A stretch of 64,000 nt of DNA from NCBI RefSeq assembly GCF_019670105.1, contig NZ_AP023032.1, positions 1,916,972-1,980,971 on the forward strand. The letters are read 5' to 3'. The position numbers were made by a program, and so were the translations under genes. The stretch comes from Agarivorans albus (lineage in GTDB: Bacteria > Pseudomonadota > Gammaproteobacteria > Enterobacterales > Celerinatantimonadaceae). The notes under the pieces were generated by a model that made no database searches, had not been told where the DNA came from, and saw only the letters and a program-made list of their open reading frames with translations. Position 1 is the stretch's first letter. The number at the start of each line of letters is the position of its first letter. Shown piece after piece: positions 23,810 through 30,736 of the stretch.

Positions 23810-25429
23810 CTAGTTGTTAATGGCAAAACCAATACCCAAGCTTTGATTATGTTTATTGTAATCAATTAGGGATTCACCATAGCCGTTAAAGTACTTAAGG
23901 TAGAGTGCTAACTCTTGGCTTATACCATAGGACCAGCGTAGGTCTAAAGCGCCTTTGTTCTCTTTTTTAAAGTTATTCCGCCCTAAAAAGCTTAAACGAT
24001 GGCGCTCATTTATTTGCCATTTGGCCGTTAGCTCACCGTAGCCGTAGTAGTCTTCCATGTTAGGGTTATCGTCTTCAGACTCGTCTTCTGGTAATCGATA
24101 CCATGGCTTAATCGCGATGCTTACCGGGTCTGCATCAAAGCCAAATTCTGCGTACACTCGGTTCCATGAGCGCGAGCGTATTTGTGTTTGTCCGTTTGAT
24201 TCGTGCACTAAGCCAAAGCGCAGCCATTCAGGCGACCATTGTGATTTTTGGTCAGCTTGGCTATTCCATTGGTAGAAAAACTCGGGTTCATAGTTGGTTT
24301 CTCGAATCGAATCTCCTGAACGTTCATAAGGCTGCCAAAAGGTTTGTTGAGTGTAAGCAAAGCTTAAATTATCGCTATCGGTAAATAGCGTGAAAGGAAG
24401 CGTGAGGCGGAAACTAAACTGAAACTCTACTTCCATTTTTTCAGGTTGTTGACCGGGCACACCTCCAGCTAAATCAGGGATGGCAGGGGAGGGGTTATAT
24501 TTAAATGGCAGAATATAGTTATCTCTAAACATACTCATGCCGGCAAACGTCCATTGGCTGCTGGTAGACATCATTTCACGACGGTCACCGATCCGGTTGA
24601 GGGCAACCCCTAAACCAAAAGACTGGTTGTGGATGTTGTAGTCAAGCATTGACTCGCCATAGCCATTAAAATACTTGGCGTAAAGAGAAAATGCAGGGCT
24701 AATGCAGTAAGCAAAACGCAAATCTATAGCGCCTTTATTATCTGATTGCAGATTATTGCGGCCCATTGCTGTGATGCGGTGGTTACATTGATTATCACCA
24801 AATAAATACCCTACAGTCAGTTCTCCGTAACCATAATAATCGGTGAAGTCACCGCCGTTGTTTACTTCGGGGCCTACTGGGATCCAGGGTTTAAAGGTGA
24901 TTAACCAATCGTTATAAGAGGTATCAAATTGGGCGTATATTCTTTCCCAGGAGCGATCAAAATCACCGTAAGAACCATTTGCTTGATGGCTAAATCCAAG
25001 GCTGGCTGCGCGCAACAACCAGCGATTTTTAGTAATGCTAAATTGATCGGGGCGCCAAGTGTAAATGAGTTCGGGCTCGTAATTGGTATCACGAAATGGG
25101 GACGAGAAGGGTTTGTTATATACCTGCCAAAAACTTTGCTGAGTATAGGCAATGCTAAAGTAGTCTCTATCACTTAACAGGTTTTCAGCTACGATGAGCT
25201 TGCCACTGATCTGAAATTCGGTTTCTAGGTTGTCGATACCTCTGCCATTTTCGGCTTCTTTGGTGGCTAATACTGAGGAGTAATCACCTAAACTTGGTGG
25301 GTTAGGGTTGTATTTCCCTAGCAAAATATAGGTATCGCGATAGGCAACTATCCGAGGACCACCGTCTTGCTCTGCCAAGCTAGTACTTGATAGCGATAGC
25401 AGCAAGATACTAAGTACTGTTTTCTTCAT
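23810..25429 (-). CDS. Double-barrel outer-membrane phospholipase A (tandem OMPLA fusion, N-terminal barrel inactive)
   Basis: A 539-residue protein with a signal peptide (SSTSLA) and two full-length PldA-like barrels, about 25-275 and 285-539; ordinary OMPLA has one. Each has DNYIL/DTYILLGKYNPNP, a SFAYTQQTFWQ strand, the active-site strand, YYGYGELT and YLKYFNGYGESLIDYN. The second barrel has the intact triad: His409 and Ser411 in HESNG, and Asn423 in SRSWNR. In the first, the same positions are His148, Ala150 (HQANG) and Glu162 (RSWER), so serine and asparagine are lost. OMPLA works as a calcium-dependent homodimer; this chain may be a covalent dimer with one active site. It is monocistronic and ends six bases from the DUF4336 gene. 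Confidence 0.9.
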   Translation of the reverse strand: MKKTVLSILLLSLSSTSLAEQDGGPRIVAYRDTYILLGKYNPNPPSLGDYSSVLATKEAENGRGIDNLETEFQISGKLIVAENLLSDRDYFSIAYTQQSFWQVYNKPFSSPFRDTNYEPELIYTWRPDQFSITKNRWLLRAASLGFSHQANGSYGDFDRSWERIYAQFDTSYNDWLITFKPWIPVGPEVNNGGDFTDYYGYGELTVGYLFGDNQCNHRITAMGRNNLQSDNKGAIDLRFAYCISPAFSLYAKYFNGYGESMLDYNIHNQSFGLGVALNRIGDRREMMSTSSQWTFAGMSMFRDNYILPFKYNPSPAIPDLAGGVPGQQPEKMEVEFQFSFRLTLPFTLFTDSDNLSFAYTQQTFWQPYERSGDSIRETNYEPEFFYQWNSQADQKSQWSPEWLRFGLVHESNGQTQIRSRSWNRVYAEFGFDADPVSIAIKPWYRLPEDESEDDNPNMEDYYGYGELTAKWQINERHRLSFLGRNNFKKENKGALDLRWSYGISQELALYLKYFNGYGESLIDYNKHNQSLGIGFAINN

Positions 25430-25609: not shown

Positions 25610-25948
25610 TTAAGAGATGCTATAAGCAATAACAACACCTAAGGCCACAAGGCCTAGCGCAAAGGCAAACTGTATTGCGGTAGACAATAACGCTAATACA
25701 AAACCCGCTACAGCCGTGGTTCGAAAGACCAAAGAGAATAGAATGCTAGTGATAACTAAAGCAACTAAAGAAGGGAAGAGCCCCTCGCCAATAACCATTT
25801 CGGTAAACGCTGTAGCGGCTATTGCAGCAATTACAGCAACAAAACAAACATCTATTCCCGAGCGCTCAATTTTGAGCACTTGAGTGCCCAATTTAATCGG
25901 TGCAAGCATAATTAGTGTTAGTAGAGAAAGCGTTAATACTATCGTCAT
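25610..25948 (-). CDS. Small integral membrane protein, unknown function
   Basis: A 112-residue protein, almost wholly hydrophobic, with about four membrane spans: TIVLTLSLLTLIMLAPI, ICFVAVIAAIAATAF-like, LVALVITSILFSLVF, and a C-terminal span. It has a short polar segment GTQVLKIERSGID and the charged pair TEMVIGEG. No family is recognised. GAGGT lies upstream of the ATG and a good terminator follows, so it is a real single-gene unit. Confidence 0.65.
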   Translation of the reverse strand: MTIVLTLSLLTLIMLAPIKLGTQVLKIERSGIDVCFVAVIAAIAATAFTEMVIGEGLFPSLVALVITSILFSLVFRTTAVAGFVLALLSTAIQFAFALGLVALGVVIAYSIS

Positions 25949-26238: not shown

Positions 26239-28386
26239 TTAAGCTATGTGAACAGCGCCACTCCAGCGTAGGGTTTCGCCATTAATCTCTAATTGATGTT
26301 GAGTATCTGACTTCACGTTTGCTTGGTTAGAAACACAAACGGTAATCTGTTTGCCAGACACCAAGTGAATCGCCACTGCTGACGCCACTTTGTTGTGAGC
26401 CAATACTTCAACCGAAACTACTTGGCCACGAGCCTCGGTGCTCGCTTCAATCGCTTCATTAAAGTAGCCGTGAGTTTCGAATACGTTGGCGAACAAGTGA
26501 TCTTTACCTTGCTGGCGTAACAGCAATACTGGTTCGCTGCGCAAGTTGAAATCTGGATCGTTTGCACCGGTACGCGCCATAATAACTTGGCTATTTGCTA
26601 CCGCAGAACTAACCATTGTGTAATAGCTGTTGCCTTGCAACCAAGTGATTAGGCTTGAACCTTCAACTTCTGCTGTTGCTTGATGCCATAGGTGCTGGTA
26701 ACCATTGTTTTCGCCTAAAGGCTTAAGGCGTGCATTGCATTCGTAGTTAAAGTCGCTGCGAATAAACTGGCCAGAGTAGTGAAGGGCGTAATCATAGTTA
26801 TGCTCTTGCTCGCTTACTAAGCGGAACAAATCCAATACCAAAGGCTTAGCGAAGCCTTCTGCTTCAAACATGATTACACTGCGTTGTTGATCAACTCCAG
26901 GGTAGTAGTTGCGTACAAACGCACTCATTGCTTGTAGCTGGTTGTCTCCACTTACAAAGAAGTGCTGCTCGCCCCATTTTTCTTCTGCGGTGGCGGTATC
27001 ACCTTGGTTTTGGCTTTGGTAGTCAACAACCACAGTGTTGTGAGCAATGGTTTGCTTCGCGTAGCTTTTGTTCTCTGGAATGTAACGGCCGCCAAATTTT
27101 GGCTCTACATTTACCCAGCGGCCAAAGCCGTAGTCGTGCAATACTTCTTGGCCACGATTAAATAGGTTGAAGTGCAAGCCGTCAAAATGGCCATGGTCTA
27201 AGGCTGAGTGAAGTTTGTGGTCACTACCATGCTGGCCGAACCAAAGTAGCGCCATGCTGTCGTCTTGTTGAGCATCACGGTGGCGCAAAATTGCTACGCC
27301 GCCACGGTCGCCTTCAGCGCCATCGGTTAATACTAAGCTGCCCCAGTTAAAGCCACCAATACTTGCAGCATTTTCACTCGCATCCGATAGGCTGGCACCA
27401 GAACCATGCACCCAAACTTTAGCTTGGTGTTTGGCCATAGCCACTAAGTTGGCGTCACGTTGGTAACGGCTAAAGCACATGCTGGTAGCAATCAAAATAC
27501 CTTCGTCGTTAATGTCCATGGTTTTTGATGAATCATTAAGTGCAGGTAATACACCATTAGGAAAGGCGGTAGCCATTACTGCGTAGGTTGTAGTTTTAAT
27601 AACCTGATCTTTTAGTTGGTAAATACCAATCTCTGGTTGGCGACGCTCAATAGCCTCGGCAAACAAGAAGATTGGGCGCAACGAAAAGCGGTGGTAGTAA
27701 GGACCTTCCATGTAGTAACCGTCAGGAGAAAACAGCTGAGTAAGCTGAGCAATAAAGCCGCCGCTTACGCTATCACCTTTAAGGCCATACAAGGCTTTAT
27801 CTACGCTGGCTTGGTCTTGAATTGCGTAACCACAAATACCAACACCTGCTACTGCCCACAAACCGTGGTTGTGCACAATATCAAAGTCGTGGGCGTACAC
27901 GTCTACAAACAGCTCAATCATTAACTTAAATAAGTCATTTTCGATCAGTGTTTGCTCGTCTTCTGCCAACTTATGACGAATGCAAGAATAAGCACATGAG
28001 GCGTACAGCATCCACATGTTCTCGTTCAATGTTTGGTGGAATAAACGCCCTGGTGGGTTTGAGTCTCGGCTAGTGTTTAGCTCCAAAGTAGGGTACACCT
28101 TGGCGTATTCAACCAGCATGCTACGTGCATAATCTAAGTAGCGTTGGTCTTCAGTAATTAGGTACAAGCGGCCAGCTAAATCCAAGTGGATGTAGTTTTG
28201 CTTGTGGCGGTTATGCTCATAACCGCCTGCTTCACCGTGGCCTGGGATCTCAATGCCTAAAGGCATGTAGGCTTCTAGTGCGGCAACTTCTGCCGCGATA
28301 GATTGACCAATCAGCGAATCGGTATTTAGATGCTTAGCTAGCTCTTTTGCTTCTTCAAAGCTTATCAATAATGGTTGGTAAGTCAT
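26239..28386 (-). CDS. Oligoalginate lyase, PL17 family (second gene of pair)
   Basis: About 715 residues, without a signal peptide, so cytoplasmic. PL17 exolyases cut alginate oligomers by beta-elimination to unsaturated monouronates. The N-terminal toroid has ERPGHGEAGGYEH-like EIPGHGEAGGYEHNRHKQNY, then NHGLWAVAGVG with Asn173/His174 and YYMEGPYYHRFSLRP with Tyr230. The 57-residue spacing of Asn and Tyr fits the characterised PL17 enzyme Alg17c (Asn201, Tyr258). The C-terminal part is the heparinase II/III-like beta domain (SYAKQTIAHNTVVVD). ATG at 28384-28386 is chosen: GAGG lies six bases before it and it begins two bases after the upstream stop. The frame is open 15 codons further. Confidence 0.93.
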   Translation of the reverse strand: MTYQPLLISFEEAKELAKHLNTDSLIGQSIAAEVAALEAYMPLGIEIPGHGEAGGYEHNRHKQNYIHLDLAGRLYLITEDQRYLDYARSMLVEYAKVYPTLELNTSRDSNPPGRLFHQTLNENMWMLYASCAYSCIRHKLAEDEQTLIENDLFKLMIELFVDVYAHDFDIVHNHGLWAVAGVGICGYAIQDQASVDKALYGLKGDSVSGGFIAQLTQLFSPDGYYMEGPYYHRFSLRPIFLFAEAIERRQPEIGIYQLKDQVIKTTTYAVMATAFPNGVLPALNDSSKTMDINDEGILIATSMCFSRYQRDANLVAMAKHQAKVWVHGSGASLSDASENAASIGGFNWGSLVLTDGAEGDRGGVAILRHRDAQQDDSMALLWFGQHGSDHKLHSALDHGHFDGLHFNLFNRGQEVLHDYGFGRWVNVEPKFGGRYIPENKSYAKQTIAHNTVVVDYQSQNQGDTATAEEKWGEQHFFVSGDNQLQAMSAFVRNYYPGVDQQRSVIMFEAEGFAKPLVLDLFRLVSEQEHNYDYALHYSGQFIRSDFNYECNARLKPLGENNGYQHLWHQATAEVEGSSLITWLQGNSYYTMVSSAVANSQVIMARTGANDPDFNLRSEPVLLLRQQGKDHLFANVFETHGYFNEAIEASTEARGQVVSVEVLAHNKVASAVAIHLVSGKQITVCVSNQANVKSDTQHQLEINGETLRWSGAVHIA

Positions 28387-28388
28387 GG

Positions 28389-30527
28389 TTAACCTCGGTT
28401 CTTTTCTAACGCCAGAGATCCCTGCCAGCAATAAGTTTGTTGATTATGTTCAATAGTGTGCTGAGTTTCAGCGCTTACATCGCGTTGGTTGCTAAGCATT
28501 ACGGTGAAATCAATGCCTTCACCTTTAACTTCAATAACGCTGCCAATGTCGTTGCTTACAACTACAGTCACTTGGTTTACTTTGCCGCGAGCATTAGTAC
28601 TGGCTTCTACAGCTTCGTTAAAGTAGCCGTGCGTTTCTAATACGTTAGCAAATACCGTAGATTTAGCTTGGCGGCGTAAAATAAAGCTGGTTTCGCTGCG
28701 CAGGTTAAACTCTGGGTCGTTAGCGCCTACGCGAGTGAAGAAGAGCTCGTCGTTTGCTTCGCTGGCACTAATCCAAGAATAGTAGCTATTGCCTTGTAGC
28801 CAGCTTACTAAATTGTTTTCAGAGGCTTTGCCTTGCGCTTCGTTCCACAAATGTTGGTAACCAAAGTTGTCACCCATTGGTGCCAATTCTTTATGTGTTT
28901 GGTAATCGCTTGTACAACGTACAATTTGACCTTGGTATTGTAGGGCGTAGTCGTAGCTATGTTCGGTGTCGCTAGACAAACGGAACACGTCTAGTAATAG
29001 CGGTGCTTCTAGTGCGTCGTCGTTAATGAGTACTACACTGCGTTGTTGGTCAACGCCAGGGTAAAACTCTTCAGCAAAGGCACTTACCGCTTGTAGATCT
29101 TGGTTGCTACTTTCGAAGAAGTGCGGGATGCCGTGTTTGCTGTCTGCCAATTCTACATCGAAGTTGTTTTGACAAGCTTGGTCTACAGCAACTGCGTTGT
29201 GAGCAACGGTTTGGCGTGCATAAGATTTGTTTTCATCTAAATAACGACCACCAAATTTAGGTTCTACATTTACCCAGCGGCCAAATCCGTACTCTTTAAG
29301 TACCTCTTGTCCACGGTTGAAGAAGCTAATGCCTAAGGTGTCGAAGTGACCATGTCCCATGCCGTGTTGGCCATAGTTCATTACCAATTGGCTTACGTCA
29401 CCGTCTTTGCTTTGCATACGAACAAAGCCTTGTGCGCCGCGATCACCATTTGGACCTTCGTTTAACTCAACACTTGGCCAGTGAGGAAGGGCTGTGTTGG
29501 TTGAGTCTTGGTAAGCTTTTGATAAGGCCGCGCCGCAGCCATGTAACCAAACTTGCTGCTGAATTTTAGCCATGCCAAGCAGTTTTTCATCGTGGCCGTA
29601 GTGTTTGTAAGCTAAGCTCACTGCCACTACTACACCTTGATCTTTAATGTCCATTGTTAACGAGGCATCGTTTAGCGCCGGGAACACACCGTTAGGGTAG
29701 GCGGTAGCTAACATCGCTTTAATGGTTTTACCAATCACTTGGTCTTTGTAGTTAAAGATGTCTAGCTCTGGACGATGGCGGTGCAACACTTCGGCAAATA
29801 AACACAGTGGGCGAATCGCATAACGATGGTAGTAAGGCCCTTCCATGTAGTAGCCTGATGGCGCAAACAGTTGGCTAATTTGTGCTAAGAATCCACCAGT
29901 AACATCGTCACCTTTTAGGCCATGTACCGACATTTCTACATATTCTGGTTTGCCAATGGCTAGACCACAAATACCTACCGCTGCCACTGCCCAAAGGCCG
30001 TGGTTGTGAATGCGGTCAAAATCAAAACCGTATTTGTCGGTAAACATATCCAACATAGGTTGAAATAGTTGGCTTTCGATATGTTTAACTTGCTCTTCGT
30101 TTAACCAGTGCTTAATACAGCTGTAGCCTAAGCTTGAATACAGAAGCCACACGTGTTCGTTAAGAATCTGGTGAAACAAACGCCCCGGTGGGTTGGTATT
30201 GCGTTGAATATGAAAGCCAAAGCCTAGGTACTTGTCGGCATACTCAGTCAGTATGTCTGCAGTGTATTGGGCGTATTGCTCTTCACCGGTAATAAGAAAT
30301 AAGCGACCCGCTTGATTAATGTACTGGTAGTTCTGCTTGTGACGGTTGTGCTCGTAACCACCCGCTTCGCCATGGCCGGGTACTTCAATAGGCTTAGCCA
30401 TATAAGCCTGAGTTTCGCTAATCATTTTGGCTAAGCTTAAACCCATTAAGCTTTTGGTGTTTAGCTGTTGGCTAATTTCAGCAATTTCCTGCTGGTCTAG
30501 TAACACTGCATTTAAATTCGCAAGCAT
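28389..30527 (-). CDS. Oligoalginate lyase, PL17 family (first gene of pair)
   Basis: About 712 residues, cytoplasmic, clearly paralogous to the next gene: the same EVPGHGEAGGYEHNRHKQNY, NHGLWAVAAVG (Asn175/His176), YYMEGPYYHRYAIRP (Tyr232) and SYARQTVAHNAVAVD. The sequences diverge in many surface positions, so this is an old duplication; the two may prefer different uronate ends (M or G). ATG at 30525-30527 has GAGG six bases before it; two earlier ATG codons in the frame lack that. Divergent from the symporter operon across a region with three regulon sites. Confidence 0.92.
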   Translation of the reverse strand: MLANLNAVLLDQQEIAEISQQLNTKSLMGLSLAKMISETQAYMAKPIEVPGHGEAGGYEHNRHKQNYQYINQAGRLFLITGEEQYAQYTADILTEYADKYLGFGFHIQRNTNPPGRLFHQILNEHVWLLYSSLGYSCIKHWLNEEQVKHIESQLFQPMLDMFTDKYGFDFDRIHNHGLWAVAAVGICGLAIGKPEYVEMSVHGLKGDDVTGGFLAQISQLFAPSGYYMEGPYYHRYAIRPLCLFAEVLHRHRPELDIFNYKDQVIGKTIKAMLATAYPNGVFPALNDASLTMDIKDQGVVVAVSLAYKHYGHDEKLLGMAKIQQQVWLHGCGAALSKAYQDSTNTALPHWPSVELNEGPNGDRGAQGFVRMQSKDGDVSQLVMNYGQHGMGHGHFDTLGISFFNRGQEVLKEYGFGRWVNVEPKFGGRYLDENKSYARQTVAHNAVAVDQACQNNFDVELADSKHGIPHFFESSNQDLQAVSAFAEEFYPGVDQQRSVVLINDDALEAPLLLDVFRLSSDTEHSYDYALQYQGQIVRCTSDYQTHKELAPMGDNFGYQHLWNEAQGKASENNLVSWLQGNSYYSWISASEANDELFFTRVGANDPEFNLRSETSFILRRQAKSTVFANVLETHGYFNEAVEASTNARGKVNQVTVVVSNDIGSVIEVKGEGIDFTVMLSNQRDVSAETQHTIEHNQQTYCWQGSLALEKNRG

Positions 30528-30736
30528 TTGAAACCTCATACACATAATTTATTGATATAAAGTAATACAAATAAAAAATGAATTCAGCATAATCAGGTAA
30601 AAAAGTGAACTTACTCACAATATATCTTTTTGCTGTTTATTCGTTCTACAGCATTGTAGCTTAGTTGTTGAAGCTATGTAGCATGAGGCTGGATTTGCCT
30701 TAAAATTAATCAAAACAAGCTAAGCAAAAAATAATT

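Follow-up and report, generated by a model that had tools for sequence, protein, structure and literature searches.

The 64,000-nucleotide stretch of the Agarivorans albus genome analyzed here (hereafter, the window; contig NZ_AP023032.1, positions 1,916,972 to 1,980,971) contains a pldA gene that encodes two phospholipase A1 (PLA1) domains in one chain. This fused gene, which starts with ATG and has no internal stop codon, and the relationship between its two OMPLA-like halves are the subject of the analysis. Its parts are as follows:

23810..25429, minus strand: fused pldA gene, 539 amino acids, two PLA1 domains (open reading frame and PF02253 profile)
25373..25429, minus strand: probable signal peptide, residues 1-19 (judged by eye from the sequence)
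24593..25372, minus strand: N-barrel, residues 20-279, putative pseudoenzyme half (PF02253, 231.0 bits; 12-strand model)
24530..24592, minus strand: linker, residues 280-300, probably periplasmic (from sequence)
23813..24529, minus strand: C-barrel, residues 301-539, putative catalytic half (PF02253, 278.6 bits)

The original prediction, made from the sequence of the window, had described a single frame with two phospholipase domains, and a separate profile search of each half bears this out. Both halves match PF02253 (the first over residues 20-277) with scores far above the gathering cut-off of 27 bits, and the two domains together span the fused protein end to end. The halves share 42% amino acid sequence identity over 251 columns (E 5e-68), and the best PDB sequence matches of the fused protein are E. 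coli OMPLA chains. Against the NCBIfam phospholipase A equivalog NF008031, the fused protein scores 329.6 bits, which is below the curated cut-off of 369 bits. No further PLA1 match was found elsewhere in the 4.79-Mb genome. A scan for promoters and terminators gave nothing firm (three promoter-like sites vs 5.1 in shuffled sequences).

A search of related genomes, proposed together with the original prediction, found the same fusion as one copy in one open frame in all seven Agarivorans genomes (A. albus included), with 74–100% identity to the protein of the window. One further locus from a contig scan (L023) does not represent an eighth species, because its protein is identical to L006 of genome G004. 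Since it is present in all seven genomes, a fused frame with Ala at the position of the catalytic Ser is more than a chance occurrence. The same join and the same linker in these independent genomes also refute an assembly or sequencing artefact that joined two genes; nothing was found in favor of such an artefact, which we regard as extremely improbable.

The catalytic triad of OMPLA is His-Ser-Asn, and the E. coli enzyme has one barrel per chain and forms a homodimer with calcium (PMC5043575 and PMC11481481). For comparison of the two halves with single-barrel proteins, 91 loci were considered; one (L076) was left out for having no protein with a match, and the other 90 merged to 73 distinct proteins (7 fused and 66 single). 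The single-barrel set leans toward typical OMPLA because it consists mainly of the best-scoring loci of the searches. Residue numbers such as Ser106 and Ser144 follow the mature E. coli OMPLA protein and were assigned by sequence alignment to it. The aligned residues in the fused protein are as follows:

25091..25105, minus strand: Ser109-Arg113 (SSPFR), which corresponds in the N-half to the E. coli Ser106 loop and is retained
24980..24982, minus strand: Ala150 at the catalytic Ser144 position, N-half
24956..24958, minus strand: Asp158 at the Ser152 position, N-half
24944..24946, minus strand: Glu162 at the Asn156 position, N-half
24302..24319, minus strand: residues 371-376, C-half counterpart of the Ser106 loop, broken and one residue shorter
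24203..24205, minus strand: His409 of the triad, C-half
24197..24199, minus strand: Ser411, the nucleophile, C-half
24173..24175, minus strand: Ser419, C-half counterpart of Ser152
24161..24163, minus strand: Asn423 of the triad, C-half
24785..24787, minus strand: Cys215, kept in all seven N-halves and not in C-halves
24704..24706, minus strand: Cys242, kept in all seven N-halves and not in C-halves

Recheck of the coordinates agrees with the triad residues originally named (H148/A150/E162 vs H409/S411/N423, with a 12-residue spacing in each half). The C-half triad is intact in all seven Agarivorans genomes, and the N-half lacks it. At the Ser144 column, Ser is present in 66/66 singles and 7/7 C-halves, and all seven N-halves have Ala. 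Asn is found at the Asn156 column in 65/66 singles, 7/7 C-halves, and 1/7 N-halves, with Glu in five and Asp in one of the other N-halves. The Ser152 column has Ser in 64/66 singles and 7/7 C-halves, and Asp in every N-half; Ser419, its counterpart in the C-half, is a putative calcium ligand. Similarly, Asp occupies the Asp184 column in 56/66 singles, 7/7 C-halves, and none of the N-halves. As for the two cysteines of the N-half, their columns contain no Cys in the 66 singles either, and a disulfide at the periplasmic rim is possible.

Loss of the triad and the variation among Glu, Asp, and Asn at the Asn156 position would also fit an N-half that is a functionless, decaying duplicate. However, the ratio of nonsynonymous to synonymous substitution rates (dN/dS) of the N-half is 0.020–0.029 in the three closest pairs, similar to that of the C-half, the frame is open in all seven species, and the barrel fold is retained in the model of the N-half. 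Both halves are under purifying selection, and decay is very unlikely.

At the Ser106 loop, it is the C-half that has changed. The Ser106 column has Ser in 66/66 singles and 7/7 N-halves, and the C-halves have Gly (five), Val (one), or Ser (one), with a one-residue gap beside this column and loss of Pro108 and Phe109 in all seven. The singles were thinned to 29, and 45 columns are conserved in 93% or more of these; of the 45 columns, 26 are kept in both halves, nine are lost in the N-half only, five are lost in the C-half only, four are partial, and one is lost in both halves. The three Ser106-loop losses all fall in the C-half and the seven losses at 144–186 all fall in the N-half (p 0.008; the loss-split tests were framed after the data were seen). 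The residue losses of the two halves are thus largely complementary, which is the pattern expected of a fixed pair after one site became dispensable. In the 1999 structure of the E. coli dimer and the UniProt feature list, each calcium is reportedly held by Ser106 of one subunit together with Arg147 and Ser152 of the other, and is said to sit beside the triad of the subunit that gives Arg147 and Ser152. Under this scheme, the fused chain would contain one complete composite site, to which the N-half contributes Ser109 and the C-half contributes Ser419 and the triad.

The same loop bears on an alternative in which the C-barrel acts as an ordinary OMPLA through C-to-C contacts between two chains, with the N-barrel recruited to a new role as a sensor, an anchor, or a porin-like scaffold. 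Several traits specific to the N-half in all seven genomes (the Cys pair, Gly at position 73, and Asp at 152) argue for a new role, and the long stem branch of the N-halves (2.06 vs 0.86 for the C-halves in the phylogeny below) fits such a change. However, the loop is retained by the N-half and absent from the C-half, and it should be needed in a C-to-C dimer if Ser106 is the calcium ligand given by the partner. The alternative appears unlikely.

The reading that we favor, with a probability of about two in three, is that of a single-chain OMPLA pseudo-heterodimer, in which a pseudoenzyme N-half completes the catalytic C-half. Both halves would fold as 12-strand outer-membrane barrels with a short linker presumably at the periplasmic rim, and the two barrels would contact each other through the dimer face known from OMPLA. 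Of the two composite sites, a single one would be kept, in which the C-barrel provides His409, Ser411, Asn423, and its calcium ligands and the N-barrel completes the site with its Ser109 loop; the mirror site would have lost parts on both sides. The N-barrel would give a calcium ligand and probably also one wall of the substrate cleft. This scheme predicts a calcium-dependent, single-site enzyme with activity that is independent of two chains meeting. More tentatively, and at somewhat less than an even chance, the pseudoenzyme barrel may supply both the calcium ligand and the cleft wall, and activity may have been freed from the meeting of subunits, which is the proposed switch of E. coli OMPLA. 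The residue evidence is the same for a swapped dimer, in which the N-half of one fused chain completes the C-half of another, and the sequence cannot separate intra- from inter-chain pairing of N- and C-halves. Nonetheless, the linker of approximately 20 residues would make pairing within one chain simpler, and swapping is improbable.

Consistent with the pseudo-heterodimer, an AlphaFold2 model of the N-half alone (six alignment rows) is a 12-strand OMPLA barrel with E. coli OMPLA as the best PDB fold match. The full chain was modeled by AlphaFold2 with a four-row alignment, and the C-half was modeled only within this chain (predicted local distance difference test [pLDDT] 33). The profile matches, the conservation, and the fold of the N-half lend support to the original claim of a covalent pseudo-dimer with one intact triad, but the full-chain model (pLDDT 33.0) does not tell whether the barrels pair. 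The complementary residue loss adds to what the original prediction had noted, and its suggestion that the protein may be constitutively active or regulated by the inactive half stays a hypothesis.

For the origin of the two halves, a phylogeny built from the 66 singles, the seven N-halves, the seven C-halves, and E. coli (81 rows) placed the N-halves in one clade (support 100/100) and the C-halves in another (100/98), with the two clades as sisters (98/92). These patterns are best read as a tandem duplication and fusion before Agarivorans radiated, after which the N-half would have evolved faster. A separate origin, with the C-half grouped with L010 and L041, gave a tree that was worse by 24.8 log units and was rejected at a borderline p of 0.048; this grouping was chosen after the tree was seen.

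Several points weigh against the pseudo-heterodimer and the history proposed for it. In the alignment, the C-half of L009 shows Ser at the Ser106 column, next to the gap, and the N-half of L007 keeps Asn at 156. Position 73, which presumably lies on the dimer face of OMPLA, is Gly in all seven N-halves and a larger hydrophobic residue in 65/66 singles. Position 187 (conserved in 27/29 singles) is lost in 7/7 C-halves and kept in 5/7 N-halves, and the p-value of the loss split becomes 0.024 once it is counted. The full-chain model has a pLDDT of 33.0 and a predicted template modeling score of 0.25, and therefore the pairing of the barrels is not readable from it. Synonymous divergence is saturated for most pairs, the tree tool gave a long-branch warning, and the rejection of separate origins is narrow. 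Moreover, calcium adds little to the stability of the dimer according to PMC10153742. Published views differ on how far calcium or dimerization is the switch of OMPLA; PMC7617971 calls OmpLA a constitutive dimer that is strictly dependent on divalent cations.

Two PLA1 domains in one frame are limited to Agarivorans within the genome samples searched (family, order, class, and phylum samples, which overlap), although these searches would overlook a second domain that has diverged beyond recognition by the PF02253 profile. In the family sample, PLA1 matches were found in 8/12 genomes, namely the seven Agarivorans genomes and G010, which has a single barrel. The order sample had matches in 203/394 genomes; a renewed search of all 20 genomes outside Agarivorans with at least two PLA1 matches revealed no frame that contains two full domains. 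When the fused protein itself was the query against the order, it was matched over its full length in the seven Agarivorans genomes, and the others among the matches listed span about one half. Among the matches listed for the class (96/369 genomes) and the phylum (103/398 genomes), no other fused frame was found. For plasmids, 63 records match PLA1, and the 15 among the matches listed are all of single-barrel length. Four scans of viral contigs gave two distinct PLA1-like relatives (L092/L095 and L093/L094). These genes are located on two IMG/VR contigs (L093 1375-2142; L092 1-1062), of which one (contig of 151 kb) has the motifs HESNG and SRSWD and the other lies at a contig end (41 kb). An OMPLA carried by a phage or prophage would be of interest.

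The C-terminus of the fused protein (23810-23830) has Asn or Gln as the last residue in 7/7 genomes, about two residues before the usual end, and 65/66 single-barrel PLA1 proteins end in Leu, Phe, or Tyr; this ending bears on the barrel-assembly signal. The neighborhood of the gene, which consists of a pair of alginate-lyase-like genes, a gene for a 112-amino-acid protein, the fused gene, a GntR regulator gene, and an SDR gene, is kept in 4/6 other species, with individual neighbors sometimes absent. Genome G005 has none of the tested neighbors near the fused gene, and G002 has the GntR gene alone nearby. The two large adjacent minus-strand frames at 26239-30545 (730 and 718 amino acids; about 50% identical to each other) are those that we take to be alginate-lyase-like. 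The 112-amino-acid protein (25610-25948, same strand, upstream of the fused gene) lies beside the fused gene in 4/6 other species and has no Pfam or NCBIfam match. Agarivorans sp. Toyoura001 has a gene for a fatty acid hydroxylase (PF04116; L023 7945-9111) between the fused gene and the DUF4336 gene; it is absent from the window.

Under the more tentative reading, that of a naturally evolved two-barrel enzyme freed from the meeting of subunits, the barrel assembly machine must fold two barrels in a row in one chain, and control of the enzyme would be left to calcium or membrane stress. OMPLA is a model for membrane enzymes activated by dimerization, and a natural chain with fixed stoichiometry and one site allows the role of dimerization to be asked in terms of cleft alignment, calcium supply, and regulation. 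It would also be a natural test of the insertion of two barrels per polypeptide and of selection that keeps a pseudoenzyme half.

In comparison with known systems, E. coli OMPLA/PldA (1QD6, 1QD5, and 1FW2) is the best PDB match by sequence, as well as by fold for the N-half, and shares the triad of the C-half. However, it has one barrel per chain and forms a homodimer, whereas the Agarivorans protein has two unequal barrels in one chain with one triad. Because all seven genomes encode two barrels per chain, the fused protein falls outside the canonical homodimeric OMPLA type. The OMPLA dimer of Salmonella typhi with bound calcium (7EZZ) likewise differs in having separate one-barrel chains. 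Within the same family, the single-barrel PLA1 of G010 (L010, 339-amino-acid frame) shares 46% identity with the C-half, but it is a single barrel in which HQSNG, SRSWN, and the SSPFR loop are all intact. The original prediction knew of no described case; no natural OMPLA fusion was found in the open-licence literature searched (a scope without most subscription journals), but covalent dimers as such are on record. A laboratory covalent dimer of E. coli OMPLA subunits was reportedly described by Kingma and Egmond in 2002, a paper cited in PMC7617971; it resembles the Agarivorans protein in being a covalently held OMPLA dimer and is said to involve no gene fusion with a dead half.
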